Positions 18,011-29,837 of a DNA stretch of 39,610 bases are shown one piece after another. The DNA lies in the IMG/VR virus record IMGVR_UViG_3300037346_000270, positions 1 through 39,610 of that record, one strand, 5' to 3'. The notes under the pieces are model-generated. The model was given only the letters and a program-made list of their open reading frames with translations. It made no database searches and was not told the origin of the DNA. Position 1 is the first letter of the stretch. The number at the start of each line of letters is the position of its first letter. A program made the translations under genes and the position numbers. Source of the DNA: a virus.

Positions 18011-18418
18011 CTATAGTTCTAGTGCCATCTGATCGTTTTTCGTGATCGTGAACGAGAAGCCAACGATCTTACGCCCTTGTCGTCGTGGCTCTGCTGTCAC
18101 ATGCAGGGCGTCGGCGAACGACTTAGGTAACGCTGCCGGCTGACCGTTTTCCAGTTCCTGCCAGCGATCAACCAGCGCCGCGGTGAACTCAGGGGAAAGC
18201 TGGGCGACCACTACGAAGCTGTCACGCTTGCAGACCAGATACTCGCGGGACACCACGCCATTGCCTGACTTGGCTCCATCCCCCATTGGGGGTTGGGCGA
18301 TAACGCCGCGAGCAACAAGACGCTCTATTGATTGCTTCACCTTGTCATGCCGAGAATTTACCAGATCGGCAATCTGCTGGCTGCTCATCGTGATGGCGCT
18401 GCTGGTTACGAGGCTCAT
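18011..18418 (-). CDS. Rha-like phage regulatory protein
   Basis: A 135-aa protein. The N-terminal MSSQQIADLVNSRHDKVKQ is the Rha signature of a winged-helix region; YLVCKRDSFVVVAQLSPEF and LVDRWQELE follow as in the family. Rha proteins are phage regulators reported to hinder infection in hosts lacking integration host factor; the mechanism is poorly known. It is ATGA-coupled to the DUF2591 gene. Confidence 0.78.
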   Translation of the reverse strand: MSLVTSSAITMSSQQIADLVNSRHDKVKQSIERLVARGVIAQPPMGDGAKSGNGVVSREYLVCKRDSFVVVAQLSPEFTAALVDRWQELENGQPAALPKSFADALHVTAEPRRQGRKIVGFSFTITKNDQMALEL

Positions 18419-18807
18419 TGCATCAGCTCCTTTGGAACGCTGACTTCATGGCCAAGCTTAGCGGTTACGATCGCTCTGCATGCCGCTACTAGAGGAGAGC
18501 TTATACCGCTCTCATCACCTTCTCCGTCGATCATTTCGTATCGTGCATTCCAGCCGGCATCTGAGATCATCCATCCCGCATACCAGCTATATCCATTGGT
18601 GGAGCGGTCAAGACGGATTCCGTGCTTCTCAATCAGCGGGCCTCCTTGACTCCAGTTCACACTTGGAATCCAAGGAGATTGCAGGCCGGGAGCCACGTCG
18701 ATGCGCAATTCTTTTCCGCGAGAGTCATCTATCTTTTTTTTATCGGCTTTTGCCACGGCCCAATCCAATGCCGGGCCAACTAACTCGCAGGTATTAACCT
18801 CAACCAT
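18415..18807 (-). CDS. DUF2591-like phage protein
   Basis: A 130-aa protein with the DUF2591 pattern: start VNTCELVGPALDWAVAKADK, a central WSQGGPLIEKHGIRL, and a C-terminal SPLVAACRAIVTAKLG. Function unknown; common in phage early regions. Its ATG is only about 20 nt after the U-tract of the structured RNA at 18828-18960, and it lacks a strong ribosome site, so it is likely the gene most directly controlled by that leader. Confidence 0.75.
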   Translation of the reverse strand: MVEVNTCELVGPALDWAVAKADKKKIDDSRGKELRIDVAPGLQSPWIPSVNWSQGGPLIEKHGIRLDRSTNGYSWYAGWMISDAGWNARYEMIDGEGDESGISSPLVAACRAIVTAKLGHEVSVPKELMQ

Positions 18808-18827
18808 TTCAATTTTCTTTCACCCAC

Positions 18828-18960
18828 AAAAAAAGGCTTAAGGGTATGCCGGTAGTAGACCTGTTGGATCTGGATCGAGGGGGAACTCAATCCAACAGGA
18901 ACGGCACACTCTTAAACCTTGTTAACCCTCGATCCATAAACGCTGGGCTACTACACCCGT
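18828..18960 (-). ncRNA. Structured leader/small RNA, copy 1
   Basis: Reading the minus strand, four pairs of complementary segments occur in the order D1 C1 A1 B1 C2 B2 D2 A2. D is 18954-18948 with 18858-18852 (7 bp). C is 18935-18926 with 18881-18872 (10 bp, GGATCGAGGG). A is 18920-18902 with 18851-18833 (about 17 of 19 positions pair). B is 18899-18890 with 18869-18860 (10 bp). A2 runs into seven Ts and GTGGG, 20 nt before an ATG. A and B form a terminator-like hairpin; C and D cross it. A second copy with the same order and linkers lies at 25762-25906. The family is not recognised. Confidence 0.8.
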
Positions 18961-18966
18961 TCGCTG

Positions 18967-18994
18967 AGTATACCGATTCTGGCGCATCGGTAAA
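18967..18994 (-). promoter_or_regulatory. Promoter of structured RNA copy 1
   Basis: On the minus strand TTTACC (18994-18989) and TATACT (18972-18967) are 16 bp apart and place the start near 18960, just before helix D1. The second RNA copy has the comparable pair TTTACG and TATAGT. The interval also forms a 7-bp inverted repeat (18971-18977 with 18986-18992). Confidence 0.6.
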
Positions 18995-18997
18995 GCG

Positions 18998-19402
18998 CTA
19001 TTCGCAAATCCCCCAGTGATCCGCCGTCTGGAATTTAACCTGATGCTCTGCCGCGAAAGCCTCCATCACCTCAAACATATCGTTAAACCACTTCTTGCTC
19101 TTCTTGCGCGTTGAGACGCCCAGCACGACGAATCCACCGTCTAGCCCTGGCACTGCCCTTTGTTGCTCCACGGAAGCGCTGAAAACGTGCTTCCAGTCCT
19201 CGTCAGACAGTTTCTTGCCGTGCCACACGACCTGTTTTGATACATCTCGCAGCATTGCCCACATCCTGCGGTTCTGCGCATCACTGCGGACTTCCTCGCG
19301 CATCGTCCATGTGATGCCTTGGGTCAGGTCGACTTTGTGCAGGATCTGGATTGCTCGCGCCCGATCCTGCTCCGTGCGCAGCGGGAACGATGGCAGGCTC
19401 AT
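18998..19402 (-). CDS. ninB: NinB-like recombination protein
   Basis: A 134-aa protein from the ATG at 19402, which has a GGCGGAG site nine bases upstream; longer starts lie in the previous gene. The motifs TWTMREEVRSDAQNRRMWAML and KHVFSASVEQQRAVPG are those of NinB (lambda Orf), which binds single-stranded DNA and SSB and helps load the annealing protein during recombination. It is ATGA-coupled to a small zinc-finger gene, and the structured RNA follows it. Confidence 0.88.
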   Translation of the reverse strand: MSLPSFPLRTEQDRARAIQILHKVDLTQGITWTMREEVRSDAQNRRMWAMLRDVSKQVVWHGKKLSDEDWKHVFSASVEQQRAVPGLDGGFVVLGVSTRKKSKKWFNDMFEVMEAFAAEHQVKFQTADHWGICE

Positions 19403-19548
19403 TTTGAATTCTCCGCCGCAAACCGATCCTGCCGCGCCTTGCTGCACTTCGCGTGATTCCCCGAGCTACGCTTTCGATTGCACTCTGCGCACATTGATTT
19501 CTCGGAATGCCATGAGTCTGGGCGCGGGATGTGGGATCGCATGGTCAT
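19399..19548 (-). CDS. 49-aa Cys-rich protein
   Basis: Reads WHSEKSMCAECNRKR then NHAKCSKARQDRFAAENSK: a CxxC pair plus a further His/Cys, a likely small zinc knuckle. Its ATG overlaps the stop of the coiled-coil gene and its TGA overlaps the ninB ATG, with AAGGA eight bases upstream. Tiny Cys-rich genes beside ninB are usual. The role is unknown. Confidence 0.7.
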   Translation of the reverse strand: MTMRSHIPRPDSWHSEKSMCAECNRKRSSGNHAKCSKARQDRFAAENSK

Positions 19549-19904
19549 GGCTTGGATCCTTTTAATTTCTTGATCTGGCGAACCATCCCGGCATGCTCGG
19601 CGCCCAACTTGGCGCAGCTCCCGCGAAGACTTGAGTTGTCGGTGGTTAGGCGCTCGACCTCTGCCTTGAGCTGATCGCGCTCTTTCCTCGCATCATCGCG
19701 GGCCTGGCACAAGCTGCGAAGTTCTGCACTGTCACTGCCATGCTGGGCGCGCAAGCCTTCAACCTCGGCAATCAGCGCCAGCACGGCGGCAGGGTTTGCG
19801 GCAGATTCGAAATCCTCCCATGCGTCACTGATTGATTCGCCTTCACTTGACTCGATCTCGACCACGCGCAAGGCCGCCTTCTTCAATTCGCTATGGTCGC
19901 TCAT
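19545..19904 (-). CDS. Coiled-coil phage protein
   Basis: A 119-aa protein that starts with an acidic helical part (WEDFESAANPAAVLALIAEV) and continues as a long coiled coil (DDARKERDQLKAEVERLTTD) to a basic tail. It has the composition of Ea22-like early phage proteins, whose role is unknown. Coupled by overlapping start and stop codons to both neighbours. Confidence 0.65.
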   Translation of the reverse strand: MSDHSELKKAALRVVEIESSEGESISDAWEDFESAANPAAVLALIAEVEGLRAQHGSDSAELRSLCQARDDARKERDQLKAEVERLTTDNSSLRGSCAKLGAEHAGMVRQIKKLKGSKP

Positions 19905-20008
19905 TTGAAAATCTCCTTAATTCGATACCACGTATATGTGAAAAGAGCGCCAGCGCCAGCCCCAATTACAAATGCAATGTTTTCTGGACTCTCAAGTCCG
20001 GCGCTCAT
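19901..20008 (-). CDS. 35-aa membrane protein
   Basis: A one-span peptide: IAFVIGAGAGALFTYTWYR in the middle, charged KEIFK at the end. ATG overlaps the previous TGA and its own TGA overlaps the next ATG, with AAGGAG for the next gene inside its end. The strict coupling supports it as a real gene. Function unknown. Confidence 0.65.
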   Translation of the reverse strand: MSAGLESPENIAFVIGAGAGALFTYTWYRIKEIFK

Positions 20009-20214
20009 TTGTATTTAACTCCTGCTGCGTGGATGGCGGATTCACAACTGGCGATGTATGCGCTTCCTGCTCGTATTCTCGATTTTGGCAGCTCAATCAC
20101 CAGGCACTCCCGCGAGGCCTGCCATGCCTTTTCAGCGATAGTCCTCTTGTTCTCGCCAAGAATTGGAGTCGAGCTCCACCATGCCTCAAACTCTTCCCGC
20201 ATCAAATCACTCAT
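20005..20214 (-). CDS. Small phage protein, 69 aa
   Basis: A helical protein starting MSDLMREEFEAWW with ENKRTIAEKAWQASRE in the middle and a C-terminal segment AYIASCESAIHAAGVKYK. Proteins with this layout (E-x-W-W near the start and a W-x-A-W/A-S-R motif) are very common in Pseudomonas and enterobacterial phages. The function is unknown. Confidence 0.7.
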   Translation of the reverse strand: MSDLMREEFEAWWSSTPILGENKRTIAEKAWQASRECLVIELPKSRIRAGSAYIASCESAIHAAGVKYK

Positions 20215-20222
20215 ATCTCACC

Positions 20223-20357
20223 TCAACTCACGGAACAATTAGGCCAGATCTTCCGCGCCTCGATCAGCGCCTCGGACTGGGTTAGCGGGCCATCCATTAC
20301 CACCATCGGGAATGGCTTGTGGCCGGGGACTTGGACGATCCAGTTTCGCTTTTTCAA
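20223..20357 (-). CDS. 44-aa protein with TTG start
   Basis: Starts with TTG overlapping the helicase stop (TTGA), eight bases after AGGA. It reads KKRNWIVQVPGHKPFPMVVM, then LTQSEALIEARKIWPNCSVS, a small globular-looking sequence. Overlap with the helicase stop, the ribosome site and a plausible sequence support it. No known function. Confidence 0.65.
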   Translation of the reverse strand: MKKRNWIVQVPGHKPFPMVVMDGPLTQSEALIEARKIWPNCSVS

Positions 20358-21724
20358 AACTTGATTCCTCGTGGTTTTCGCTGTGGCTCGTCTTCCTGTT
20401 TGCGCTCTGGTGGGCGCCAGTTGTGATCTAAGTCAACGAATCGGTTGTACTGGCCTTCAAATCCGACTCTTACGGTTTGGGCCTCAATATCTCGACCAAT
20501 TCCAATAATTATCTCGGCAACCCCTTTGTCTTCTGTGTCCGGGTGGTAAACCTCGTCACGGTACACGAACAACACAATGTCCGCGTCCTGCTCGATCGAT
20601 CCGCTATCCCGAAGGTCGGAGGCAATTGGGCGCTTGTTCGGTCGCTGCTCAAGCGCCCGGTTCAACTGGGACAGCAAGATCACAGGTACCTGCAGCTCGT
20701 TCGCCATCAACTTGGCCTGCCGTGTGATCTCGCTGACCTTTTGCAGAGAGTTCATGCGCGGGTCTTCGCCGTCCAGCAAGCCAAGGTGGTCGATCATCAG
20801 CATGTCTAGGCCGCCCATTCGCTTCTGGCGCCGAGCCATTGCACGGACACGGCCGATCGTAAGTCCGGGGCGATCGGATATGCGCAGTCCCGATCGCATT
20901 GCGATACCAGATGCCGCCGTAAGCTCGAAACCGTACTTGGCGCCAGCGGTACCATCCTTCAGGCTGTTTAGCGGGATTGTCCCCTCTGCTGCCAGGATTC
21001 GATCCATGAGTTGCCCCTTGCTCATCTCAAGGCTTACGATCAAAACCTTCTTGTTCTCTCGGATTCCGACGTGGCGAGCAAGGCCCATGGCGAATGTGGT
21101 CTTACCCATCTTGGCTCGGCCGGCAACAACGATCAGTTGGCCCGGCTTCATACCGCAGACTGCATCGTCCAGTTTCTTGATGCCGGTACCTAATCCATCC
21201 ATTCGGCCGCCAAGGTCTTCACGGCGCTGAAGCTCTTCGACGTGGCCGCGCATCACATCGGCAACGTCGAGCACATCAGGCGTTGCTGAGTCGCTGTCGA
21301 TCGAAAGAACCTCAGCCTGAACCGCTGCAACCTTCTCTGCGGTCGATTGGGTACTGTAGGCCATCTCATGTATGACTTGGGCAGATGCGATCAGCTGGCG
21401 GTCAATGGCGCGCTCTCGGATCACGTTGGCGTATGAGTGGGCGTTGGCAGTCGATGGAGTGTTCATCGAAATCTCGATGCAATACGCCATTGCCGATTCG
21501 CCGTTCTCCAAGGTACCGATGCTTTCAGCGACGGTCACATGATCGATATGCTTGCGCTCGGACGCCATGGCAAGGATCGCCCGGTAGATCTCTGCGTTCT
21601 GTCCCCAGTTGAAATCGGTGGACTTCAGATCGGACGATAGCAAGTCGACAAGCTCAGGTCGTTTCAGTAGTGCGCCTAGCAGGCCGTGCTCTGCTTCAAG
21701 GCTGTATGGATCACGCATCGTCAT
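20354..21724 (-). CDS. dnaB: Replicative DNA helicase, DnaB family
   Basis: A 456-aa protein from the ATG at 21724, overlapping the initiator gene's stop. The N-terminal domain starts RDPYSLEAEHGLLGALLKRPE, the primase/initiator-binding part. The RecA-type core has Walker A GRAKMGKT at about residues 202-209, Walker B LMIDHLGLLDG, and VILLSQLNRALEQRPNKRP with SDLRDSGSIEQDAD as in DnaB. It unwinds DNA at the fork as a hexamer; the preceding O-like protein probably loads it at the origin. Having its own helicase frees the phage from host DnaB. Confidence 0.94.
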   Translation of the reverse strand: MTMRDPYSLEAEHGLLGALLKRPELVDLLSSDLKSTDFNWGQNAEIYRAILAMASERKHIDHVTVAESIGTLENGESAMAYCIEISMNTPSTANAHSYANVIRERAIDRQLIASAQVIHEMAYSTQSTAEKVAAVQAEVLSIDSDSATPDVLDVADVMRGHVEELQRREDLGGRMDGLGTGIKKLDDAVCGMKPGQLIVVAGRAKMGKTTFAMGLARHVGIRENKKVLIVSLEMSKGQLMDRILAAEGTIPLNSLKDGTAGAKYGFELTAASGIAMRSGLRISDRPGLTIGRVRAMARRQKRMGGLDMLMIDHLGLLDGEDPRMNSLQKVSEITRQAKLMANELQVPVILLSQLNRALEQRPNKRPIASDLRDSGSIEQDADIVLFVYRDEVYHPDTEDKGVAEIIIGIGRDIEAQTVRVGFEGQYNRFVDLDHNWRPPERKQEDEPQRKPRGIKF

Positions 21725-22457
21725 AATTCCCGTCAATAATTTTGTTGAAGTTCGCAGCCTTCAAAAACCAATCGAAGCTCGCACCCTTCATCGAAGTCAA
21801 AAATGCATTGCCTTTGATGTAATCGAAGAACCTCCGCCAGAACTCCAGGTTTTGAAACTTATCGTCCGATTGCCACCTGCACCTGATAGCCGTCTTCCTT
21901 GCGTCGTTCCGTAGCGTTGGCTGTGGAAGCGCTGGAAGGATCTCGCTGTACAGGTCGAAGATCGCAGCGAATGGAACCGGTGCTGCTTTCACTTTCTCAT
22001 TACCGCTTTTCCCATCCTCATCCGGATCGGCGTCAGCCGGTTTGGGAAGAAGATCTTCTTCTTGTATTTCTAGTACTTCTTTATTGTGGTGGCTTGCTGG
22101 TGTCTTGCTGGTTGTTTGCTGGTGATTTGCTGGTGAGTCAGTCTGGTACTTTGCCCAGTTAGTCACTGTAATCACTGAGAATTTCGAGTGTGATTTGATG
22201 GTGATTTGCTGGAGGGTTTCTAGAGCCTTTAGAGCCATCCTCAAAGTGTGTTCTGACACCCCAATTTGCTGTGAAAATTTGATCCTCCCGAACACCAATT
22301 GGCCCGGCTGCAAAGTGATTACCTGATGCCCGACAAGGACGTCTCCAGCCTTGTAGGAAGCCGACAGGATTAGATGCATCCATACGGCCAGGTACTCGGG
22401 CTTCGCACCTATAGCGCTAGTCAGCAGCTTGCGAGATACCTTCACCCAGCTGCTCAT
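21711..22457 (-). CDS. Replication initiator, lambda O-like
   Basis: A 248-aa protein. The N-terminus (SSWVKVSRKLL, then WMHLILSASYKAG and LVFGRIKFSQQIGVSEHTLRM) is a winged-helix DnaD/O-like DNA-binding domain. A Gln/Ser/His-rich linker follows, encoded by the iteron repeats. The C-terminal domain (WRRFFDYIKGNAFLTSMK, then FDWFLKAANFNKIIDGNY) is the part that meets the helicase in this family. It is directly upstream of the DnaB gene. Like lambda O, it seems to contain its own binding sites inside the gene. Confidence 0.82.
   Translation of the reverse strand: MSSWVKVSRKLLTSAIGAKPEYLAVWMHLILSASYKAGDVLVGHQVITLQPGQLVFGRIKFSQQIGVSEHTLRMALKALETLQQITIKSHSKFSVITVTNWAKYQTDSPANHQQTTSKTPASHHNKEVLEIQEEDLLPKPADADPDEDGKSGNEKVKAAPVPFAAIFDLYSEILPALPQPTLRNDARKTAIRCRWQSDDKFQNLEFWRRFFDYIKGNAFLTSMKGASFDWFLKAANFNKIIDGNYDDA
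22046..22215. other. Candidate replication origin (iterons in initiator gene)
   Basis: Four tandem 11-bp units with core TTGCTGGT begin at 22094, 22105, 22116 and 22127, exactly one helical turn apart. Two more related units (TTTGATGGTGA, TTTGCTGGAGG) lie at 22194-22215. On the other side an AT-rich stretch (22062-22087) and a perfect 16-bp palindrome GAAGAAGATCTTCTTC (22046-22061) follow. Iterons plus AT-rich DNA plus an inverted repeat inside the initiator gene is the lambda ori layout. Function is inferred. Confidence 0.7.
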
Positions 22458-22619
22458 TTACAGCCCCAAGTCTTCGCAGATTTTCTTAAGGGCTGCTTGA
22501 TACTCAGCCTCGCCAGTCCATCCATTCTTCTCGACCCACTCACGCTTGCGTCGTTCGTACTCTTGCCGCTTTGATGCGGGCGCCACGCTGAATCCTGGCT
22601 TTGCTCTGCGGATATTCAT
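22458..22619 (-). CDS. 53-aa basic protein before initiator
   Basis: Reads NIRRAKPGFSVAPASKRQEY, then RREW and a helical C-terminus ending KKICEDLGL. Its stop is directly followed by the initiator ATG (TAAATG) and its start is two bases after the regulator's stop. Small and basic, possibly nucleic-acid binding; I do not recognise the family. Confidence 0.65.
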   Translation of the reverse strand: MNIRRAKPGFSVAPASKRQEYERRKREWVEKNGWTGEAEYQAALKKICEDLGL

Positions 22620-22621
22620 AT

Positions 22622-22822
22622 TCAGTCCTCTCCCAGAGCCAGGAACTCGCTGACCTTCATCCCGAAGGCGTCGGCCAGCAAAACAATCGTTCCAACGCCA
22701 GCATGCTCCTTGCCGACGAGCTGGCTGATGTATGGCTTCGATACCTTCATTCGCCCTGCAAGGTCTTGCTGGTTCATGTCCTTCATGGCCATAGCGACCT
22801 TGATGCTTTTACCTACGTTCAT
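22622..22822 (-). CDS. Cro/CI-like helix-turn-helix regulator
   Basis: A 66-aa XRE-family protein made of little more than the DNA-binding domain: QQDLAGRMKVSKPYISQLVG (residues 18-37) is the helix-turn-helix, followed by GTIVLLADAFGMKVSEFL. Size suggests a Cro-like repressor without a cleavage or oligomerisation domain. It is the first gene of the leftward arm, facing the rightward early promoter across a 238-bp region, so it probably controls one or both promoters. Confidence 0.85.
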   Translation of the reverse strand: MNVGKSIKVAMAMKDMNQQDLAGRMKVSKPYISQLVGKEHAGVGTIVLLADAFGMKVSEFLALGED

Positions 22823-22860
22823 ATTGCTGGCCCTTATGTAGCCCGTTTGTGTGAAGCAAG

Positions 22861-22889
22861 ATTATATGGATGGTTACTCATACGCAAGC
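22861..22889 (-). promoter_or_regulatory. Leftward early promoter (candidate)
   Basis: On the minus strand a perfect TATAAT (22866-22861) lies about 40 bases upstream of the regulator ATG. The -35 is weak (TTGCGT or CTTGCG, spacing 15-16), so activity may depend on context. It is back to back with the rightward promoter, leaving a short AT-rich gap that contains TTAATTAA (22897-22904). Confidence 0.55.
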
Positions 22890-22909
22890 ATATTAGTTAA
22901 TTAAATGTG

Positions 22910-22938
22910 TTGACGTCCTGATTTTCCATGTCTATAGT
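22910..22938 (+). promoter_or_regulatory. Rightward early promoter
   Basis: TTGACG (22910-22915) and TATAGT (22933-22938) with the ideal 17-bp spacer form the best sigma70-type promoter in the window. It drives the rightward early arm from about 22945. The palindrome TTAATTAA lies just upstream of the -35, between the divergent promoters. Confidence 0.85.
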
Positions 22939-22969
22939 TCGTCCCAAGCAACACGAACACCGCACCAAC

Positions 22970-23034
22970 CGCTCTTTAACAACTCGACAGAAACAATCTT
23001 GAATTTTCATAGCAGGCCTTGGCGACAGGGCCTG
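22970..23034 (+). promoter_or_regulatory. boxA-like antitermination leader with hairpin
   Basis: CGCTCTTTAACA at 22970-22981 matches the boxA of ribosomal operons and lambda nut sites, where NusB/S10 bind. About 30 bases on, CAGGCC (23013-23018) and GGCCTG (23029-23034) form a hairpin in a boxB-like position. It lies in the untranslated leader of the rightward transcript and may make the polymerase ignore early terminators. The hairpin is larger than a lambda boxB, and no N protein is recognised. Confidence 0.65.
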
Positions 23035-23060
23035 ACGGGGAAATTACAAGGAGAAGCATC

Positions 23061-23174
23061 GTGACCAAAATCGAATATCAGGAACCCGGCTCAGGCGGCG
23101 CAATCTTCGCCTGGATCTTCGCAAGCGTTATTGCATGGTCGGCGCTAGCAGCCTGCCTAATCACACTTAGTTAA
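23061..23174 (+). CDS. 37-aa membrane protein, first rightward gene
   Basis: Starts with GTG seven bases after AAGGAG. A polar N-terminus (TKIEYQEPGSGG) precedes one membrane span (AIFAWIFASVIAWSALAACL). It is the first product from the strong rightward promoter, so it would be among the earliest phage proteins. Function unknown. Confidence 0.7.
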   Translation: MTKIEYQEPGSGGAIFAWIFASVIAWSALAACLITLS

Positions 23175-23187
23175 AAGGAAATAAAAA

Positions 23188-23355
23188 ATGCAATCTTTAT
23201 TCGGTCTTATGATTTTTGTTTGGATGATCGGGTCGTGGCTTACACATCTGGTTGTTTGTTTTACTGATGACCGCTGGGGGTTTTTGATTGCTGGAGCTCT
23301 GTTCTTTCCGGTGGCGATTATTCACGGAACCGGCGTTTGGTTTGGGTTCTGGTGA
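23188..23355 (+). CDS. 55-aa two-span membrane protein
   Basis: ATG at 23188 follows AAGGAAA. Two hydrophobic segments, LFGLMIFVWMIGSWLTHLVV and GFLIAGALFFPVAIIHGTGV, are joined by a short acidic loop CFTDDRW. Proteins of this type recur in Pseudomonas phages in early position; possibly superinfection exclusion or host takeover, but no function is known. Confidence 0.7.
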   Translation: MQSLFGLMIFVWMIGSWLTHLVVCFTDDRWGFLIAGALFFPVAIIHGTGVWFGFW

Positions 23356-23358
23356 AAT

Positions 23359-23442
23359 ATGAATAAGTCAGCAGCAGCACTAATCGGCGCACTTGTCGCC
23401 ATGACCATCTACACGGCCTGGACACTCTGGACTGTTTTGTAA
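23359..23442 (+). CDS. 27-aa hydrophobic peptide
   Basis: ATG three bases after the preceding stop; nearly all of it is one membrane span (AALIGALVAMTIYTAWTLW). It is very small, so the call depends on tight spacing to its neighbour and on composition. Third membrane peptide in a row. Confidence 0.5.
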   Translation: MNKSAAALIGALVAMTIYTAWTLWTVL

Positions 23443-23464
23443 TTGACCAAATCGGGGAAATTAA

Positions 23465-23890
23465 ATGACCAAAATACAATCTAAGATGATCACCAAAGAA
23501 ATCCCAGCCTTCCGAAAGTTCCTTGAGGCTCGCGGCTTCAAGTGCCGTGACGGGAAAGGCGACTGGCAATCTCTTCAGGTGCAGAACATCACTGACCGAG
23601 GCTGGAAGGCTTTCTGCCACAACGCCAAAGGTGTCGTTACATCGCCGGTCGAGTTCGACGCGCTTATTCAGCTGTTCCATGCTCCAGTTGATCCAGCGCC
23701 ATCGGTTGAGGTGGTTGACCGCCCAGCCAGCCACGACAGCGACCTGCTGGATGACTTCGCGATTGCGGCAATGCAGGCAATGGCTTCTGGATCATTTAAC
23801 GATCCGCTCGGCGATAAGCAGCTTGCCCTTCGCAGTTACGGCATCGCACTCGCTATGATGGCCGAGCGCGCTAAGCACCAGCCTAAGTAA
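23465..23890 (+). CDS. Hypothetical early protein, 141 aa
   Basis: ATG after GGGGAAATTAA. N-terminal part with KEIPAFRKFLEARGFKCRDG and WQSLQVQN suggests a small alpha/beta domain. The C-terminal part (LLDDFAIAAMQAMASGSF, then LALRSYGIALAMMAERAK) is helical and resembles a segment found in many phage early proteins. Function unknown. Confidence 0.68.
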   Translation: MTKIQSKMITKEIPAFRKFLEARGFKCRDGKGDWQSLQVQNITDRGWKAFCHNAKGVVTSPVEFDALIQLFHAPVDPAPSVEVVDRPASHDSDLLDDFAIAAMQAMASGSFNDPLGDKQLALRSYGIALAMMAERAKHQPK

Positions 23891-23900
23891 GGGGGTTGTG

Positions 23901-24041
23901 ATGACTGAATACGATCGGTGGCTTGAGCCAAACGATGATGGACTTGAAGAAATGGATGATGGGCTGACCGAGCAAGAGCGCCGACAGAAAGCATTCGATG
24001 ACTTCGATCCACCAGATAACGACTACGGCGGCGACCTATGA
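23901..24041 (+). CDS. 46-aa very acidic protein
   Basis: ATG preceded by GGGGG. The product is strongly acidic (TEYDRWLEPNDDGLEEMDDG, then FDDFDPPDNDYGGDL), which suggests a DNA mimic or a binding partner for a basic surface, as known for some phage anti-defence peptides; that is only an analogy. It is ATGA-coupled to the next gene. Confidence 0.65.
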   Translation: MTEYDRWLEPNDDGLEEMDDGLTEQERRQKAFDDFDPPDNDYGGDL

Positions 24042-24265
24042 GCAACCACGACAACGCAATGAAGATCATCGAGTCACGCTTCAAGCTGCTGGAGGCTGGG
24101 GATACCTCGGCCGTAGTCCACGCTGAGCTGTCGATGGCAATTGAAATGGCGCACTCCTGCGGGGTTATCAGCCTTGAGGAATATGACCCTCTTGTGAGGC
24201 GCCAGAATGCGATCTACAAAAAGCAAGATGCAGAATTCACCAAGTCCCGGGAGAAATACTTATGA
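24038..24265 (+). CDS. Small phage protein, 75 aa
   Basis: Helical: HDNAMKIIESRFKLLEAGD, then AELSMAIEMAHSCGVISLEE. Coupled by ATGA on both sides. The composition is typical of small early phage proteins that may bind host enzymes. No family recognised. Confidence 0.65.
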   Translation: MSNHDNAMKIIESRFKLLEAGDTSAVVHAELSMAIEMAHSCGVISLEEYDPLVRRQNAIYKKQDAEFTKSREKYL

Positions 24266-24738
24266 GCAAGATTCCAGCAGGTGCAACGCATACTTACACC
24301 GAATCAAGCGGTACGTCATTCCGCAAGATGTATGGCAGTTACTTGCTTGGATATGCGGACGGCGATTGGATTATTTTGAATAATCCCTCTTCCCATTGTT
24401 ATGTCCCAATCCAGGCTGAGCCGGAATGGGATGGCGAAGGGCTTCCGCCGGTTGGTATGGATTGTGAGTGGAAAGGAATAACAAGAAATGGATGGGCTAA
24501 AGTTTCAATCATTGCGCACGGAAAGGAGGAAGGTGATTTTGTTGCGATTGCTCAGGCTGAAAACGAAGTGGTGCTTGGCGCAAGTGATCAATTCAGATTA
24601 ATTCGAACCCCCGAACAGATCGCAGCCGAAAAGCGTGACGCCGCCATCAAGGAAATGCAGCGCCTCGTAGGCTCTTGCAACACTTTTCCTTTCGCTGAAC
24701 TTTACGACTACGGATATCGCCTGCAGGTGGAAAAATGA
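24262..24738 (+). CDS. Phage early protein with conserved WDGEGLPP motif
   Basis: A 158-aa protein. The middle, EWDGEGLPPVGMDCEWKG then VSIIAHGKEEGDFVAIAQ, and the end FRLIRTPEQIAAEKRDAAIK form a pattern shared by many phage accessory proteins of unknown function. A variable N-terminal part (FRKMYGSYLLGYADGDWIIL) precedes it. Coupled by ATGA on both sides. Confidence 0.7.
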   Translation: MSKIPAGATHTYTESSGTSFRKMYGSYLLGYADGDWIILNNPSSHCYVPIQAEPEWDGEGLPPVGMDCEWKGITRNGWAKVSIIAHGKEEGDFVAIAQAENEVVLGASDQFRLIRTPEQIAAEKRDAAIKEMQRLVGSCNTFPFAELYDYGYRLQVEK

Positions 24739-24920
24739 CAACTCCAGCAATCAAAACCCTGATCGACGAACAAGTCGAGTCAATGCCGCACTACTCAAGC
24801 TCTTCCGTGCCTCTGCATGAGGCGCTAGGCCTTCCGGCTTACATCAACGTATCAGCCATGCCTATCCGCATTGCTGTGACGCTTCAGGGTGGCGTGCGGA
24901 CAGTGGAATTGAGAAAATGA
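24735..24920 (+). CDS. Small phage protein, 61 aa
   Basis: Overlaps the previous stop by four bases and the next start by four. Sequence TTPAIKTLIDEQVESMPHYS, then LPAYINVSAMPIRIAVTLQG, likely a small beta fold. Function unknown. Confidence 0.62.
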   Translation: MTTPAIKTLIDEQVESMPHYSSSSVPLHEALGLPAYINVSAMPIRIAVTLQGGVRTVELRK

Positions 24921-25249
24921 ATGATCGTGAATTGTTGGAAATGGCGGCAAAGGCTGCAGGTATCAAGCCAGAAGGCTATGGGGTAAATGGAGTAGCTACG
25001 CGAAAAAATGGTCCATGCCTTGTTGGATGGTGGAACCCGATTAATGACGATGGAGATGCGTTTCGACTGGCGGCATATCTCCGGCTAGAAGTGATTCCCG
25101 GAAATCATGCTGGCGATGGGTGTAGCGTTAATTCAAGGCGCCATGAAATACCCGGAATTACTGTGTTTCGAGATAGTAAGGACATGGCCGAGCAAATGCG
25201 CCGGGCCATCTTAATGGCCGCAGCAGAGATCGGGAAATCCATGCCATGA
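24917..25249 (+). CDS. Phage sandwich-domain-like protein, 110 aa
   Basis: The start (NDRELLEMAAKAAGI) and the core GWWNPINDDGDAFRLAAYLR are the hallmark of a large group of phage proteins sometimes called ABA sandwich domain proteins. These occur in early regions of many temperate and lytic phages with no known role. ATGA coupling on both sides. Confidence 0.68.
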   Translation: MNDRELLEMAAKAAGIKPEGYGVNGVATRKNGPCLVGWWNPINDDGDAFRLAAYLRLEVIPGNHAGDGCSVNSRRHEIPGITVFRDSKDMAEQMRRAILMAAAEIGKSMP

Positions 25250-25422
25250 CCAAGCCCCAGCAATTCACAGTAGCCAGCCTTCAATCGCAAGGCTTCAAGA
25301 TCACCGAAGAACTCGCAACGGCCACTCGCATGGCCCGAGGCGCAGACCTACGCATTGTCATGTGCGATGGCACACAAAAGCGCGGCCAGCACCAGGGGCG
25401 CACTTACAAGAGGGATAAGTGA
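25246..25422 (+). CDS. 58-aa basic protein
   Basis: ATG overlaps the previous TGA. Reads FTVASLQSQGFKITEELATA, then ARGADLRIVMCDGTQKRGQH and a Lys/Arg tail. Basic and small, it could bind nucleic acid. Its TGA overlaps the ATG of the Lar-like gene. Confidence 0.65.
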   Translation: MTKPQQFTVASLQSQGFKITEELATATRMARGADLRIVMCDGTQKRGQHQGRTYKRDK

Positions 25423-25607
25423 TGAAAGAGCATAATCCAAAGCCATGTCCTGAATGCAATAGCACCGATCTTGATGTTGATAGCGCTCAAGGTGGAAGCT
25501 GGGTTCAGTGCTGCGACTGTGAATTCAAGGTTCAGCATGCTTGTTCTGAATCAGCAGTCGTAAAGCGCTGGAACAAGATTGATCGAACCGTAAAGGCGGA
25601 GTCATGA
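25422..25607 (+). CDS. Lar-like restriction alleviation protein
   Basis: A 61-aa protein from the ATG at 25422. It has a two-knuckle zinc ribbon, KPCPECNST then VQCCDCEFKVQHA, ending VVKRWNKI. This order (CPxC, CxxC, A..xWN) is that of the Lar family, small proteins that moderate type I restriction in favour of phage DNA. The actual activity of this member is not known. Confidence 0.75.
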   Translation: MKEHNPKPCPECNSTDLDVDSAQGGSWVQCCDCEFKVQHACSESAVVKRWNKIDRTVKAES

Positions 25608-25717
25608 GCCGCCAAAAACTCCGCCGCCTAGCGATACTTCGAGGCGGCCTGTACGCGACCTTGTTTTGGGTTGTCTTGGTCATGCTTTATGGTCTTGCTG
25701 ATCGTGTAGCTGGATGA
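25604..25717 (+). CDS. 37-aa membrane peptide
   Basis: ATG overlaps the Lar-like stop. A very basic start (SRQKLRRLAILRGG) precedes one membrane span (LYATLFWVVLVMLYGLA). Last gene before the second structured RNA. Function unknown. Confidence 0.6.
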   Translation: MSRQKLRRLAILRGGLYATLFWVVLVMLYGLADRVAG

Positions 25718-25726
25718 ATTTACAGG

Positions 25727-25755
25727 TTTACGGCGGACTGTTTGTTTCGTATAGT
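25727..25755 (+). promoter_or_regulatory. Promoter of structured RNA copy 2
   Basis: TTTACG (25727-25732) and TATAGT (25750-25755) are 17 bp apart and place the start near 25762, just before helix D1. The -10 and following bases (TATAGTTCG) equal those of the main rightward promoter at 22933. Confidence 0.65.
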
Positions 25756-25761
25756 TCGCCC

Positions 25762-25906
25762 TGTTGGAGAGTGTTAGACCTCGAAGACAAATCAGGATCG
25801 ACGGCTAATAGAGCCTTTTGATGTTCGCTGTTCCGGGATTGGTTGACTTGCCGTCGATCCAGGCCAATTTCGGAGTCTAACCAGCGAACAATCAAAGGGC
25901 TTTTTT
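25762..25906 (+). ncRNA. Structured leader/small RNA, copy 2
   Basis: Helices in the same order as copy 1. D is 25773-25779 with 25875-25881 (7 bp). C is 25795-25804 with 25851-25860 (10 bp, GGATCGACGG). A is 25812-25830 with 25882-25901 (19 bp, one bulge, one wobble). B is 25833-25842 with 25864-25873 (10 bp, two wobbles). Stem A is followed by TTTTTT and GTGGG. The ATG of the next gene is at 25921, with GGGAGAAGGG right after the U-tract. The bases of A, B and D differ from copy 1 but pairing is kept, which supports a real RNA fold. Function is inferred. Confidence 0.82.
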
Positions 25907-25920
25907 GTGGGAGAAGGGAA

Positions 25921-26244
25921 ATGTCGAATCAAAATACGCCAGTAGTTTTAACCGTAGCCGAGGGCTTCGAAGTTCAGATCACTCCTGAGATTTTGGCAAA
26001 AGCATTCTGGGCTATGCATTGTGGTCAGCAGGCTGATTTCCTTGATTCTCTTGGTGCTGAGATCGAAGCAGACCACGTCACGAACAAGAACAGCTACAGC
26101 TACGGCGAGCTGCAATGGTGCTACCTGAAAGACGAACTTCGCCAGCCGGGCCGCGAGCGCGCAAACAACGTACATATGGCCCTGTCCGCATTCGCCTTCG
26201 ACTTCTGGCCACAAAAGCAGAATGGCGCTCGGGAGGGCATCTGA
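25921..26244 (+). CDS. Hypothetical protein behind structured RNA, 107 aa
   Basis: The ATG at 25921 has a strong AGAAGGG site directly after the U-tract of the structured RNA; longer frames would run into that RNA. The protein starts SNQNTPVVLTVAEGFEVQIT and continues ILAKAFWAMHCGQQADFLDS, a pattern seen in other phage early proteins. Function unknown. It heads the recombination block, so the leader probably controls that block. Confidence 0.7.
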   Translation: MSNQNTPVVLTVAEGFEVQITPEILAKAFWAMHCGQQADFLDSLGAEIEADHVTNKNSYSYGELQWCYLKDELRQPGRERANNVHMALSAFAFDFWPQKQNGAREGI

Positions 26245-26245
26245 A

Positions 26246-26998
26246 ATGACTGACGATATGTTCAAGCCAAAACCGAACATGCGAATTTGGGATCAGGTCG
26301 AGAAGACAGATACCCGATACACCAAAAGCGCAAAGGTCGGCGGCCAGCAAATTACCGCGCTGAACGGCACGGCAATGATCATGAAGGCGACTGAAGTTTT
26401 CGGGCCTGTAGGCTTCGGATTCGGCTGGACTGTCCTTGAAGAGCGATTCGATAAGGGCGCCGAGATTTTCAGCGGTGAAGGTGATAAGCGCGTGAGTCTC
26501 GGCTATGAACTGAACCACACCGTTAAAATCAAGTTCTGGGCCGTTGTAGATGGCCAGCGCGGCGAGTTCGAGCAGTACGGCTGCACCCAGTACCTGTACA
26601 AGTCGAAGTACGGCACGACGACCGATGGCGAGGCACCCAAGAAGTCATTGACAGATGCGATCAAGAAGTCGCTTTCAATGCTCGGCTTCAGCGCTGACGT
26701 GTTCCTGGGTCTGTTCGATGACCAGAATTACGTCCAGTCGCTCATTGCCGAAGAGGCCATTGAGAATGCAGAGGACAAAGAGGCTGAGATCGCCCGCCAA
26801 GAAGCTGAGCGTCTCGCCTACATCAAGGGTCTGATTGAATCCATGAATGGCGCCCTGTCGCTGCGTGAGGCTACCAAGATTCACGATTCGGCAATCCGCA
26901 TCCTAACCGCTCGCAAGGATCAGGCGGGTATGCGCCGGGTAATCAAGGAGCTGAAAACCCTGACCGAAACCAAATTCAAAGTGGAGCAACCGCAATGA
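26246..26998 (+). CDS. Rad52-like single-strand annealing protein
   Basis: A 250-aa protein from the ATG at 26246, after GGGAGGG. The core (GTAMIMKATEVFGPVGFGFG, then CTQYLYKSKYGTTTDGEAPK and KKSLTDAIKKSLSMLGFSAD) matches the Rad52/Sak-like fold, in which the last helix block is conserved. A charged helical C-terminus follows. Such proteins anneal complementary single strands in phage recombination and replication. Gp157 and SSB genes follow, a usual partner set. Whether it is Sak-, Erf- or RecT-type needs a profile search. Confidence 0.72.
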   Translation: MTDDMFKPKPNMRIWDQVEKTDTRYTKSAKVGGQQITALNGTAMIMKATEVFGPVGFGFGWTVLEERFDKGAEIFSGEGDKRVSLGYELNHTVKIKFWAVVDGQRGEFEQYGCTQYLYKSKYGTTTDGEAPKKSLTDAIKKSLSMLGFSADVFLGLFDDQNYVQSLIAEEAIENAEDKEAEIARQEAERLAYIKGLIESMNGALSLREATKIHDSAIRILTARKDQAGMRRVIKELKTLTETKFKVEQPQ

Positions 26999-27558
26999 GC
27001 CAGCTTTACGCAATGACCAAGCAAATGCTTGAACTGTCGGCAATGCTTGATACGGACGACGAAGGCCTTAAGCAAGCCATTCAGGACACCATGCAAGGTG
27101 TCGAGGGCGAGTTCGGCAATAAGGCAGACGCTATTGTCATGCTGCGCCGAAACATCGAAGGCGACGTTCTGGCGATTGAGTCAGAGCTTGATCGCCTGAC
27201 CGATCTGAAGCGGGTCAAGAACAACAGCATCAAAGGCCTGACCGATTACCTCAAGCGGAACATGGAGGCAGCCGACCTTAAATCCATCAAACGACCGCTG
27301 TTCACCATCACCCTGGAGGCCGGCAAAGAATCGGTCGTCATTGATTCCGATGATGCGGTGCCTGACGAGTACGTCGCGGTCAAGGTTGCGTCCACTCCGG
27401 ACAAAAAGGCTATCGCGGACTTCTTAAAGAATCTGCGCGAGAAGAATGCCGAAGTCCAAAAGCGAATTGATGCGGGCGAGGACGCAGAGCATGAGCTGCA
27501 ACCTGAACCAGAATGGGCTCGACTGCAGCGCGGCGAAAGTTCACTACGAATCAAATAA
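26995..27558 (+). CDS. Siphovirus Gp157-family protein
   Basis: A 187-aa protein with the Gp157 layout: an N-terminal coiled coil (EFGNKADAIVMLRRNIEGDV, then DRLTDLKRVKNNSIKGLTDYL) and a C-terminal beta part (RPLFTITLEAGKESVVIDSD, then VPDEYV). In Streptococcus phages the family was linked to phage resistance, and it is found next to annealing and SSB genes. It probably helps recombination. ATGA-coupled to the Rad52-like gene. Confidence 0.85.
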   Translation: MSQLYAMTKQMLELSAMLDTDDEGLKQAIQDTMQGVEGEFGNKADAIVMLRRNIEGDVLAIESELDRLTDLKRVKNNSIKGLTDYLKRNMEAADLKSIKRPLFTITLEAGKESVVIDSDDAVPDEYVAVKVASTPDKKAIADFLKNLREKNAEVQKRIDAGEDAEHELQPEPEWARLQRGESSLRIK

Positions 27559-27567
27559 GGAGTTCAC

Positions 27568-28011
27568 ATGCCACAACTAACAGACATTGGCCGCATTGGC
27601 CGCGATACAGAGGTTCGATTCACTCCGGGCGGTGATGCGGTGGCAAACCTTGCCATTGCTTGCGAATACGGGCGCAAGGGGCAGGATGGAAAGCGCCCCA
27701 CGCAATGGGTTGACGCAACATTGTGGGGCAAGCAGGCGGAGGCTATGGCCCCGTATCTGGTCAAAGGCCAGCAGGTGTACTTCACCATCGACGATGCTCA
27801 TATCGAGACCTACAAAAAGTCAGACGGAACCGATGGGGTAAAGCTGACCGGCAAGGTAATCATTATCAAGTTTGCAGGCGCTCCACCTGGTTCGGAAGCT
27901 AGCAAGCCTCAAGCCCAGCGTCCGGCGCCCCAGCAGCGCCAAGCGCATCAGCAGCAAGCGCAGCAGCCTGCTCCTGACTTCGACAGATTTGACGATGATT
28001 TGCCTTTTTGA
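27568..28011 (+). CDS. ssb: Single-stranded DNA-binding protein
   Basis: A 147-aa protein after AAGGAG. An OB-fold covers the N-terminal 105 residues (IGRIGRDTEVRFTPGGDAVA, then WVDATLWGKQAEAMAPYLVK). A Gln/Pro-rich linker follows, and then the acidic tip DFDRFDDDLPF that recruits partner proteins. It protects single strands during replication and cooperates with the annealing protein. Confidence 0.93.
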   Translation: MPQLTDIGRIGRDTEVRFTPGGDAVANLAIACEYGRKGQDGKRPTQWVDATLWGKQAEAMAPYLVKGQQVYFTIDDAHIETYKKSDGTDGVKLTGKVIIIKFAGAPPGSEASKPQAQRPAPQQRQAHQQQAQQPAPDFDRFDDDLPF

Positions 28012-28029
28012 TGCGTTAAATCAATTTAA

Positions 28030-28048
28030 GGCCGGGGTCTTCCCGGCC
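28030..28048 (+). other. GC-rich hairpin after ssb
   Basis: GGCCGGG (28030-28036) and CCCGGCC (28042-28048) pair perfectly around GTCTT. No T-run follows, so it is not a standard intrinsic terminator; it may stabilise or process the mRNA between ssb and the next gene. Confidence 0.6.
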
Positions 28049-28074
28049 AACCACATCAACAGCAGGGCCTGATA

Positions 28075-28572
28075 ATGCAAAATCAAATAAAACTCAGCCA
28101 GGATCGCCAGAGCAGCCTTGACCGGGCAAAAAAAGAGTTCTTCAGTCATGGCGGAAAGGTGGAGGTTATCGGCTCTGAATTCCGATATGTTCCGATGCCG
28201 TCACGGAAAGAGCCAAGTCTGTCGAAAGAAGAAATCAAGCAGCGCGCACTGGCCGATAAGATCCGAGCGCTTGCGCCAGATATGAATCGGGCGGAAATCC
28301 AAAAGGAGCTGGGCATTTCCTACGAGCGCGTGGCCGGCATATGCAGGAAGTTTTCGATAACACCAAAGCAGGCCTCGGGAACGCACCCGAACAGCCGCAG
28401 GGTGACTCGAAACGATCCAGAGGCTGACCGCCTGATGGTTGAGCGCATCAAGGCCCTGGCAGAAATAGGGCTCAGTAAGAGCAAGGCCTTTAAGCAGCTC
28501 GGCATGGGTGCCTACAGGATGAACCGTCTGATTGATCTGAATGGCATTGTTTTCTCGGCGGTAAAAAAGTGA
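28075..28572 (+). CDS. Double helix-turn-helix protein, 165 aa
   Basis: Two helix-turn-helix-like parts are visible: MNRAEIQKELGISYERVAGI (about residues 64-83) and GLSKSKAFKQLGMGAYRMNR (about 137-156). The N-terminal 45 residues are variable. Such tandem modules occur in phage regulators and recombination-region DNA-binding proteins. The gene is the first after the ssb hairpin and may act on late genes, but this is a guess. Confidence 0.6.
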   Translation: MQNQIKLSQDRQSSLDRAKKEFFSHGGKVEVIGSEFRYVPMPSRKEPSLSKEEIKQRALADKIRALAPDMNRAEIQKELGISYERVAGICRKFSITPKQASGTHPNSRRVTRNDPEADRLMVERIKALAEIGLSKSKAFKQLGMGAYRMNRLIDLNGIVFSAVKK

Positions 28573-28644
28573 AACGCATAAGCACTCGGGTTGCCAGCCG
28601 GCGCCGACAATCACACCTCGACCTTCCAGCAAGCGGATTGAAAA

Positions 28645-28866
28645 ATGAACCTACCAAAGCGCACAAACCCCTACAGCATGATGGATGCCATTCTCATACT
28701 GATGCTCGCCTACCGATTGCACGGTACTGATGAGGCGATACGCGCCACGGCGCACAACGTCCGCGACAAGGTGGCCGCCCGCTGCCGGCCGGTAATCAAC
28801 CAGGTGATCCGCTGCAGCTCGCCGACCAAATGGGCAGAAAATATCTGCAAGGATGATTCGCTATGA
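28645..28866 (+). CDS. Small helical phage protein, 73 aa
   Basis: ATG at 28645 after a GGATTGA site. Reads DAILILMLAYRLHGTDEAIR, then VRDKVAARCRPVINQVIRCS. Mostly helical with a hydrophobic start, but not a clear membrane span. Overlaps the next gene by four bases. Function unknown. Confidence 0.6.
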   Translation: MNLPKRTNPYSMMDAILILMLAYRLHGTDEAIRATAHNVRDKVAARCRPVINQVIRCSSPTKWAENICKDDSL

Positions 28867-29207
28867 TCTCCGTAGCCAGGATCGGAAAGAAGAAGGCGCC
28901 GATGACCCAGAAGGAGAGATCCGCGAAGTCTGCTGAGAAGCGCAAGGCGCTGAATGAGGAAGAGCTTAGACTACGGGTTAGGCAGGGGACAAAGCAGGCC
29001 TTGGCCGATCTTATGGAATGGTCCGAGCTTGAGGAGCAAGGTGAAGCGCTTACCTTGATGATTCACCACCTGCATGCGCTGGGAAAGGACGGGGCGATTG
29101 CATTCCTAACACCTCCGCGACACATCTATCAAATCAGCGAAAGCGTGGCGCGGAAACTTGAGCGGGAAGGGCGCAAAGAATCAATGCTAATCGGCCTGGA
29201 CGAATAA
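28863..29207 (+). CDS. RHH-like phage protein, 114 aa
   Basis: Begins with a basic region (MTQKERSAKSAEKRKALNEE), then LRLRVRQGTKQALADLMEWS and EALTLMIHHLHALG, which resemble a ribbon-helix-helix domain adapted as in some plasmid and phage repressors. A C-terminal basic part follows. Its last 16 bases overlap the 5' arm of the predicted CAT tRNA. Last protein gene of the rightward early arm. Confidence 0.62.
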   Translation: MISVARIGKKKAPMTQKERSAKSAEKRKALNEEELRLRVRQGTKQALADLMEWSELEEQGEALTLMIHHLHALGKDGAIAFLTPPRHIYQISESVARKLEREGRKESMLIGLDE

Positions 29208-29266
29208 CCAGCTTGCGCCCGGCTCATAACCGGGGGAAGAGGGTTCAAGCCCCTACGGGCCTACCA
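29192..29266 (+). tRNA. tRNA-like gene, anticodon CAT (Met or Ile2)
   Basis: The anticodon arm CCCGG-CTCATAA-CCGGG (29218-29234) is perfect and gives anticodon CAT at 29225-29227. The T arm (loop TTCAAGC) is good, and an encoded CCA ends it. The acceptor pairs 6 of 7 (CGGCCTG with CGGGCCT), with the first pair mismatched. The D arm is poor and lacks the usual GG, and the 5' arm overlaps the preceding coding region. It may be degenerate. Confidence 0.55.
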
Positions 29267-29271
29267 GTTTA

Positions 29272-29344
29272 GCGGGTAAGCATAAGGTTTGCAGCAAGCC
29301 TTCCAAGCTTCGCGTGATGGGTTCGACTCCCGTTACCCGCTCCA
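29272..29344 (+). tRNA. tRNA-Gly (anticodon TCC)
   Basis: Acceptor GCGGGTA/TACCCGC pairs fully, the T arm (ATGGG-TTCGACT-CCCGT) is good, the D loop contains GG, and CCA is encoded. The anticodon loop CTTCCAA gives TCC at 29302-29304. The anticodon stem has one mismatch at its base and the D stem is short (3 bp), so it is somewhat unusual but probably functional. Confidence 0.75.
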
Positions 29345-29471
29345 GAGCAATACCTTTCGCGCAAGGCTAATGCGCACGTGACATTCCGGAGAGACGGAAA
29401 CAAGCTGACAATTCGCGAATAAGTCGAGTCAGAAGCGCCGACAGCTAAGAGTTCGGACTAAGCCTAAGATT
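29345..29471 (+). other. Non-coding stretch with several hairpins after the tRNAs
   Basis: No reading frame. Possible stems: GCGC/GCGC around 29360, TTCCG/CGGAA around 29385, GCTGAC/GTCAG spanning about 29412-29441, CCGA/TCGG near 29450. The pattern could be the 3' trailer of the tRNA transcript or a structured RNA ending at the adjacent terminator. The pairs are short, so confidence is low. Confidence 0.35.
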
Positions 29472-29489
29472 AAAACCTGGGGTTTTTTT
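29472..29489 (+). terminator. Terminator at end of rightward early arm
   Basis: AAAACC (29472-29477) pairs with GGTTTT (29481-29486) and is followed by TTT. It separates the tRNAs from the late genes. The remaining 107 bases to the next gene are AT-rich. No convincing sigma70 promoter is visible there, so late transcription may need an activator. Confidence 0.7.
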
Positions 29490-29596
29490 ACGCCCTAAGA
29501 TCGGGATAGCTGGCTAAATGACCAGATACCAAATCAATCCAATAATAAGCTAAACTAGTCCAAACACGGCCAATAACCAGCAAGAGGGTATTCAAA

Positions 29597-29833
29597 ATGG
29601 CATGGAACAAGAATTACTCGAAAGTCCGCAACGCCACATGGATCTGGTATCTGATGGCATTCGCCTGCTTCGTAATGGCAGTGAAGGCATATCCGGTTGA
29701 TGGCGGGTCGATGATCAGTTTTGTGTGGTGGGTGTCTGCTGCTACTGGCCTGACGTTCTCGGCGGGGCGGGCAAAGCGTAAGGCTGCTCGCGTCGAAGAG
29801 ATTGCGCGCATGAGCGGGTGGAACAAGGAATAA
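29597..29833 (+). CDS. Two-span membrane protein before terminase
   Basis: A 78-aa protein after AGAGGG. Two hydrophobic segments: WIWYLMAFACFVMAVKAY and MISFVWWVSAATGLTF, then a basic helical tail. It is the first late gene and lies five bases before the small terminase. It has holin-like size and topology, but its distance from the lysis cassette makes another role possible. Confidence 0.6.
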   Translation: MAWNKNYSKVRNATWIWYLMAFACFVMAVKAYPVDGGSMISFVWWVSAATGLTFSAGRAKRKAARVEEIARMSGWNKE

Positions 29834-29837
29834 CCGC

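Follow-up and report, generated by a model that had tools for sequence, protein, structure and literature searches.

To our knowledge, very few systems are known in which an RNA controls the elongating RNA polymerase without a protein, put of phage HK022 being one of them. According to the accessible part of PMC9378689, put is about 70 nt long, contains two stem-loops and binds the β′ zinc domain. Here we have analysed a 39,610-base virus record of IMG/VR (IMGVR_UViG_3300037346_000270; "the window" refers to this whole stretch), and describe in it two copies of a folded and strongly conserved RNA leader, one on each strand, which both sit immediately behind sigma70-like promoter-like sites and shortly before a start codon. 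The family to which these leaders belong is absent from Rfam 15 and was previously uncatalogued. Our preferred reading, to which we give an even chance, is that this promoter-proximal 5′ leader would function as a co-transcriptional terminator gate into the gene behind it and would in this way decide on the transcription of early phage genes.

The strands follow each other in the DNA of both copies in the order D5-C5-A5-B5-E5-C3-E3-D3-B3-A3-U-run. Helices A, B and E form a long hairpin with 6-7 U at its end, helix C pairs the 5′ leader with the apical loop of this hairpin, and helix D pairs the loop of a small 5′ hairpin, F, with a bulge on the 3′ side. C and D are mutually nested, and both cross A and B. 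A preliminary description had reported a hairpin of A and B followed by Us and crossed by C and D, and all four helices are indeed present in the DNA where it placed them; helix E and hairpin F, which displays D5 in an 8-nt loop, have been added in the present analysis. The features of the two copies are as follows (R1 and R2 denote the first and second models used in the family searches described below).

25727-25755, + strand: promoter-like site TTTACG-17-TATAGT of the right copy (promoter scan)
25762-25910, + strand: right leader RNA element (R2 match in the record, E 2.8e-27)
25769-25782, + strand: right hairpin F, 3 bp, 8-nt loop with D5 (100% of cells paired; all 3 pairs changed on both sides)
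25773-25779 x 25875-25881, + strand: right D5 x D3 (100% paired; 4/7 pairs changed on both sides); D3 lies in the 3′ bulge between E3 and B3
25795-25805 x 25850-25860, + strand: right C5 x C3, 11 bp, C3 lying in the apical loop (helix listing, covariation)
25810-25822 x 25891-25903, + strand: right A5 x A3 (helix listing, covariation)
25822-25830 x 25882-25890, + strand: right B5 x B3 (helix listing, covariation)
25832-25844 x 25862-25874, + strand: right E5 x E3 (92.4% paired; missing from one compact relative)
25882-25906, + strand: right B3, A3 and U-run (T6 at 25901-25906), followed by GTGGG
18967-18994, − strand: promoter-like site TTTACC-16-TATACT of the left copy (promoter scan)
18824-18965, − strand: left leader RNA element (R2 match in the record, E 2.2e-19)
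18958-18956 x 18947-18945, − strand: left F stem flanking D5
18954-18948 x 18858-18852, − strand: left D5 x D3 (helix listing)
18936-18926 x 18881-18871, − strand: left C5 x C3 (helix listing)
18920-18911 x 18842-18833, − strand: left A5 x A3 (helix listing)
18909-18902 x 18851-18844, − strand: left B5 x B3 (helix listing)
18899-18889 x 18870-18860, − strand: left E5 x E3 (helix listing)
18834-18828, − strand: left U-run T7, followed by GTGGG

The scores of the A+C+D arrangement, 74.0 for the right and 67.5 for the left copy, were reached by none of 300 dinucleotide shuffles per copy; any such arrangement at all appeared in 2 of 300 shuffles per copy, with best scores of 54.0 (right) and 48.5 (left). 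In an alignment of 28 distinct members of the family, pairing holds in 98.2% of the 1310 cells, two-sided changes occur in 242 cells against a shuffle mean of 68, and the covariation score is 0.538 versus 0.169 in shuffles. Pairing falls to 35-50% when the partners are slid by 1-3 columns. The covariation involves all four helices, A to D. The first covariation table held 17/24 distinct sequences (97% identity filter), with the right copy of the window standing in for the near-identical copy of L010, and in that set C had been selected by the search pattern. Because C formed part of the first search, the test of this helix rests on members found by other routes.

The searches give a reciprocal picture: those anchored on C recovered the pairing of D, and a search anchored on D, together with the model searches, recovered the pairing of C with unrelated sequences. 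In the widest alignment, 36 of 38 rows have all seven pairs of D, the two exceptions being the doubtful members L392 and L398, in which D3 is not aligned. The variants of D, each with its complement, are GTTAGAC, GTAGTAG, GTCGTAA, GTCGAAA, GTGGAAC, GTGAGAC, GTGAGAA and GTCAGAG, and both strands change even among close relatives (GTGAGAC/GTCTCAC in the phages PEp14 and Pavtok, GTGGAAC/GTTCCAC in Stean). The C strands of members not found via C (GGACTGAGGC, GACCAATaGCCGGGAA, AGCCGGGAA, GATACGCTGGC, AGGCGGAACG and TATCGACA) each face a pairing strand, and C pairing is kept despite a complete change of sequence in L376, L287, L290, L381, L382, L385, PEp14, Pavtok and Stean. The shuffle p values for C in eight members of this kind are 0.0015, 0.016, 0.0005, 0.008, 0.067 (a bulged helix that the test splits in two), 0.042, 0.11 and 0.95.

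In total, we found the leader in 31 records of IMG/VR and, with PEp14 counted a single time, in seven named phages, namely the Pseudomonas phages Orisa01-03 and Orimi01 and the Erwinia phages PEp14, Pavtok and Stean. A BLAST search of 50,697 phage records with the right copy gave a meaningful E-value only in Orisa01-03 (76.4% identity over 142 nt), and the leader of Orisa03 has the same helices as the window copies. The Orisa phages are predicted virulent myoviruses, and the accessible part of the paper describing them does not mention such an RNA (PMC11256456). A pattern of C plus a T-run matched 30 stretches in IMG/VR, 25 of them real; the remaining five (L006, L013, L020, L025 and L028) were dropped as false matches. 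A second pattern, with no T-run and a loose gap of 36-64, matched 39 stretches, of which L171 alone proved to be a new, genuine member; in genuine members, the invariant parts of C are separated by a gap of 43-46. With the covariance model R1, a second copy came to light in L017, in tandem with the first, as did three members whose C sequences are unrelated. The D pattern (GTGAGAC ... GTCTCACC ... T5) gave 30 stretches, comprising 8 known members, 8 additional genuine members (of which three lie on contigs that R1 had already reached), 2 doubtful ones and 12 chance matches; PEp14 was found in this way, and its homologues in Pavtok and Stean are 76-78% identical. The second model, R2, recovers Orimi01, Pavtok and Stean, all of which lie outside its alignment.

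Some assignments are less secure. The doubtful members L392 and L398 were kept as such (C 7 bp, p 0.11 for L392, for which no start codon was found). A compact relative at L011:2341-2453 (−), which precedes an HNH_3 gene, gave a weak model match (E 0.0086) and was not recovered in a further model search; we retained it on account of D (9 bp), C (8 bp) and A/B (16 bp), which all cross in the order typical of the family, and of the start codon behind them. The false match L132 (E 0.0062) calls for caution in this case. L132 comes from a single genome-contig pattern scan that was too loose for GC-rich genomes (at least 118 stretches); it was the sole R2 match among 73 of these stretches and is a plain nested inverted repeat in a metagenome-assembled genome of Armatimonadetes. 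Among the stretches listed in the same scan, L135 has a T-run at the right distance yet no R2 match.

The leader promoters rest on position and conservation rather than on count, because the promoter scan of the whole window gave fewer sites (6) than shuffles did (11.1); a -10-like hexamer lies 7-16 nt upstream of the model start in most family members. Given the promoter-like site in front of each copy, transcripts are expected to start immediately upstream of hairpin F. At the other end, 12-20 nt separate the U-run from the start codon in 37 of 43 loci, in spite of the differing genes: the distance to the ATG is 12-15 nt in 34 loci, 18 or 20 nt in 3 and 39 nt in one, and no ATG was found in 5 (open frames of at least 60 aa, near-identical loci included among the 43). 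A start codon 12-20 nt past the U-run is too close for another promoter. The motif GTGGG follows the U-run directly in 23 of the 43 loci and after one C in 5, and was considered as a Shine-Dalgarno or pause signal. The genes behind the two window copies are the following.

25921-26244, + strand: gene behind the right leader, 107 aa, ATG 14 nt past the U-run (no Pfam or PHROG family)
18415-18807, − strand: gene behind the left leader, ATG 20 nt past the U-run (Pfam NinX, E 1.8e-11)

The left leader is followed directly by NinX-like and antirepressor-like genes (window 18011-18807, −) and preceded by a NinB-like gene. A Pfam family was found in 8 of 17 first genes scanned in the family: HNH_3 (2), ERF, KilAC antirepressor, pRha, DUF551, NinX and T5orf172. 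In L017 (5882-7314) and L019, a second leader copy and a short gene (HNH-like by reading, no Pfam match) are inserted between an ERF-like gene, named by reading of its sequence, and a gene that we take to be DUF1351-like (no Pfam match), and the same two flanking genes are only 10 nt apart in L009 and L026. Orisa03 (L001) and Orimi01 (L380) are 99.8% identical on the flanks of a block that holds a different leader and first gene, which is a natural allele swap. The differing first genes, the insertion in L017/L019 and the exchange between Orisa03 and Orimi01 imply that the leader is transferred as a cassette and has to be transcribed through. Judged from sequence, then, the leader is a portable promoter-leader cassette and not a free small RNA, because its start codon lies so near the U-run despite the differing genes.

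The preliminary description had considered that the two RNAs might act only as free small RNAs, and the position of the start codons points away from this. A related idea, in which a terminated small RNA of ~145 nt would be the product and the gene behind it would be expressed by leakage only, seems to us very improbable. An own promoter-like site and a terminator-like end would suit it; we rejected it as the main reading on the ground of the near-fixed distance to very different start codons. The insertion of leader and short gene as a unit between genes that abut in relatives also argues against it, as does the fact that the sequences of D and of A/B differ between copies within one genome, which does not favour a shared target.

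We folded growing prefixes of 15 chosen members (7 in a first run) with nested folds only, i.e., without pseudoknots. Before A3 is made, C and D are predicted together in 11 of the 15 and D alone in 3; A+B appears in all 15 only once A3 is complete, and the exchange of C/D for A/B occurs 1-17 nt before that point. The claim of the preliminary description that C/D is made first thus agrees with 14 of 15 prefix folds, in which C and/or D precedes A3. Its terminator/antiterminator switch survives in part: an A+B end state with a U-run and an early C/D state are predicted, but an antiterminator that pairs with a terminator strand is not what the leader contains. The same holds for the proposal that C/D prevents A/B unless all four coexist as a double pseudoknot, of which the crossing and the order stand; as C and D do not sequester A5 or B5 by pairing, they may either exclude A/B or coexist with it in a pseudoknot. 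The C5-A5 link is 1-6 nt long in 14 of the 15 members (12 nt in Orimi01, where C is doubtful), so that the conflict between C/D and A/B would be one of space; exclusion would have to be steric, given that neither C nor D involves A5 or B5. From the helix lengths, we estimate that C would be strained next to a complete A+B+E hairpin.

The gate could operate as follows. Transcription would start just before hairpin F and yield a leader of ~145 nt plus a ribosome-binding stretch of 12-20 nt. As the RNA emerges, C5 would pair with C3, and the F loop (D5) with D3; C and D would form first because all four of their strands are made before B3 and A3. With the emergence of B3 and A3, the preferred nested fold would shift to the long A/B(/E) hairpin, which, if zipped down to the U-run, would cause termination, while a full A helix beside a C5 link of 1-6 nt would strain or break C. 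A fast polymerase would clear the U-run while C/D hold, and a slow, paused or differently loaded polymerase would terminate. Three elements of this scheme are our inference: termination at the U-run, its prevention by C/D, and an input in the form of polymerase speed or a bound factor. In favour of the gate are the covariation of the crossing helices, the order found in the prefix folds, the near start codon and the U-run: at least 5 T follow A3 in all nine members found without a T-run requirement (L171, the second copy of L017, L376, L287, L290, Orimi01, the second copy of L011, Pavtok and Stean).

Several points weigh against this gate. D forms alone first in PEp14, Pavtok and Orimi01, and neither C nor D does so in Stean; the folding took no account of kinetics, of pseudoknots or of the footprint of the polymerase. 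Neither C nor D ever pairs with A5 or B5, and the C/D strands do not overlap those of A/B. Judging from helix lengths, helices A to D may all be present together with E open. A convincing C is lacking in Orimi01 (the p value of 0.95 above), and the compact relative in L011 lacks helix E. Finally, the model end includes the U-run, and matches with a U-run are thus favoured.

The nearness of the start codon in 37 of 43 loci would also suit a static, pseudoknotted 5′ leader whose role would be to protect the end of the mRNA and to prepare translation, with the U-run and GTGGG/AUG as an open ribosome landing site and no termination. Several genes behind the leader are HNH or other mobile-type genes, and T4-type homing endonuclease genes have hairpins near the ribosome site, one strong hairpin ending right before it (PMC2988022, in its accessible part). 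Still, the A-U pairs by which A3 passes into the U-run resemble those of an intrinsic terminator, and C/D and A/B replace each other in the prefix folds, a bistability that a translation leader does not need; we consider this static role unlikely.

Another explanation, which we consider unlikely but slightly more probable than the static leader, places the RNA with put: the double pseudoknot of the nascent RNA would bind the elongating polymerase and render it insensitive to pausing and termination across the operon behind it, the U-run being a loading pause. The leaders lie right behind promoters, their fold is compact, complex and unrelated to the gene behind, and GTGGG is kept past the U-run in 28 of 43 loci. 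Among the 21 long records (39 kb or more) in which the leader was matched, two copies lie on opposite strands in 6, as with putL/putR (PMC9378689, accessible part), a tandem pair is present in 1 and a single copy in 14; the claim of one element on each early arm, made for the window, is therefore not general. The two models also fail to relate the leader to the early region half of HK022 (20000-40751; R1 no match at E<=10, R2 none at E<=1). Moreover, put is shorter and built of two stem-loops, and a conserved U-run would not be needed. As the terminator scan lists no terminator-like site on the + strand in 25906-30000, there is no obvious put-like target behind the right copy. The likeness to lambda nut and HK022 put drawn in the preliminary description, which had noted that the structure differs, is not one of kinship as far as these searches show. 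With up to one mismatch, boxA CGCTCTTTA has 10 matches in the window and none in either leader; boxB was not searched for. The only exact boxA of the window lies at 22970-22978 (+), ~30 nt behind the promoter-like site TTGACG-17-TATAGT at 22910-22938, an arrangement suggestive of ordinary antitermination of the Nus type on the main right transcript.

Among other searches, the Rfam 15 scan of the window, which includes c4 antisense RNA among its families, gave only a tRNA match at 29272, and none were obtained for L010 and L016 at E<=5 or for L404, L405, L174 and L199 at E<=1. The tRNA-like match (RF00005, 30 bits, gathering 29) occupies 29272-29341 (+), between the early genes and the terminase region. 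At title and abstract level, the literature covered, which extended neither to subscription journals nor to most preprints, does not describe this leader RNA or an equivalent. No leader match was found in plasmids. Prophages gave 0/398 Pseudomonadaceae genomes (R1, again R2) and 0/369 genomes of the class of G027 (R2); these counts show little because the filters were strict and the sets contained no positive-control genome. Two possible links with neighbouring genes were dropped: 9 of 9 relatives of a P07-like neighbour gene were without the element by descriptor at the thresholds used, with no R1 match either, and R1 matched 2 of 80 relatives of NinB, both already known. Six imperfect copies of an 11-nt unit, TTTGCTGGTGA, are located at 22082-22217 inside the minus-strand frame 22457-21711.

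Returning to the terminator gate, the strong covariation in leaders of Pseudomonas and Erwinia phages provides natural compensatory variants for most helices, so that the crossing-helix gate is directly testable with Escherichia coli polymerase. The family is also an instance of mobile phage genes that bring a whole expression leader with them, and the model is useful for annotating unassigned 5′ regions of phage operons. We put forward only tentatively that the family may be a new class of phage RNA, in which a knotted nascent fold would control the host RNA polymerase at the start of an early operon, with neither strand sequestration nor a phage protein, and which would travel as a promoter-leader cassette before unrelated genes, including homing-type endonuclease genes.

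Compared with known systems, the leader resembles HK022 put in being a phage RNA in cis, close to where early transcripts begin, with no phage protein implied. The two copies of put are similar in sequence and lie behind the early promoters of both arms; put suppresses terminators downstream of it with no help from a phage protein, and β′ zinc-domain mutations block this effect. The window leaders are placed like put, which occurs once per arm, behind promoter-like sites on both strands, but opposite pairs are found in only the 6 of 21 long records; the leader differs further in its length of ~145 nt, its crossing helices, its U-run and the start codon directly after it. With lambda nut it shares a site on early transcripts, whereas nut consists of boxA and boxB and the leaders contain no boxA. 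Like attenuators and riboswitch-type leaders, it has competing folds and an end resembling an intrinsic terminator before a gene; unlike them, its early fold does not pair with the terminator strands, its two folds cross as a double pseudoknot, it is portable between unrelated genes and it has no known ligand. Finally, the hairpins before I-TevI, segB, mobE and seg43(25) are likewise structured RNA just before mobile endonuclease genes. Those hairpins are simple and lie at the ribosome site (PMC2988022, accessible part), whereas the present family is a six-helix leader with its own promoter, which also precedes ERF, NinX, antirepressor and other genes.

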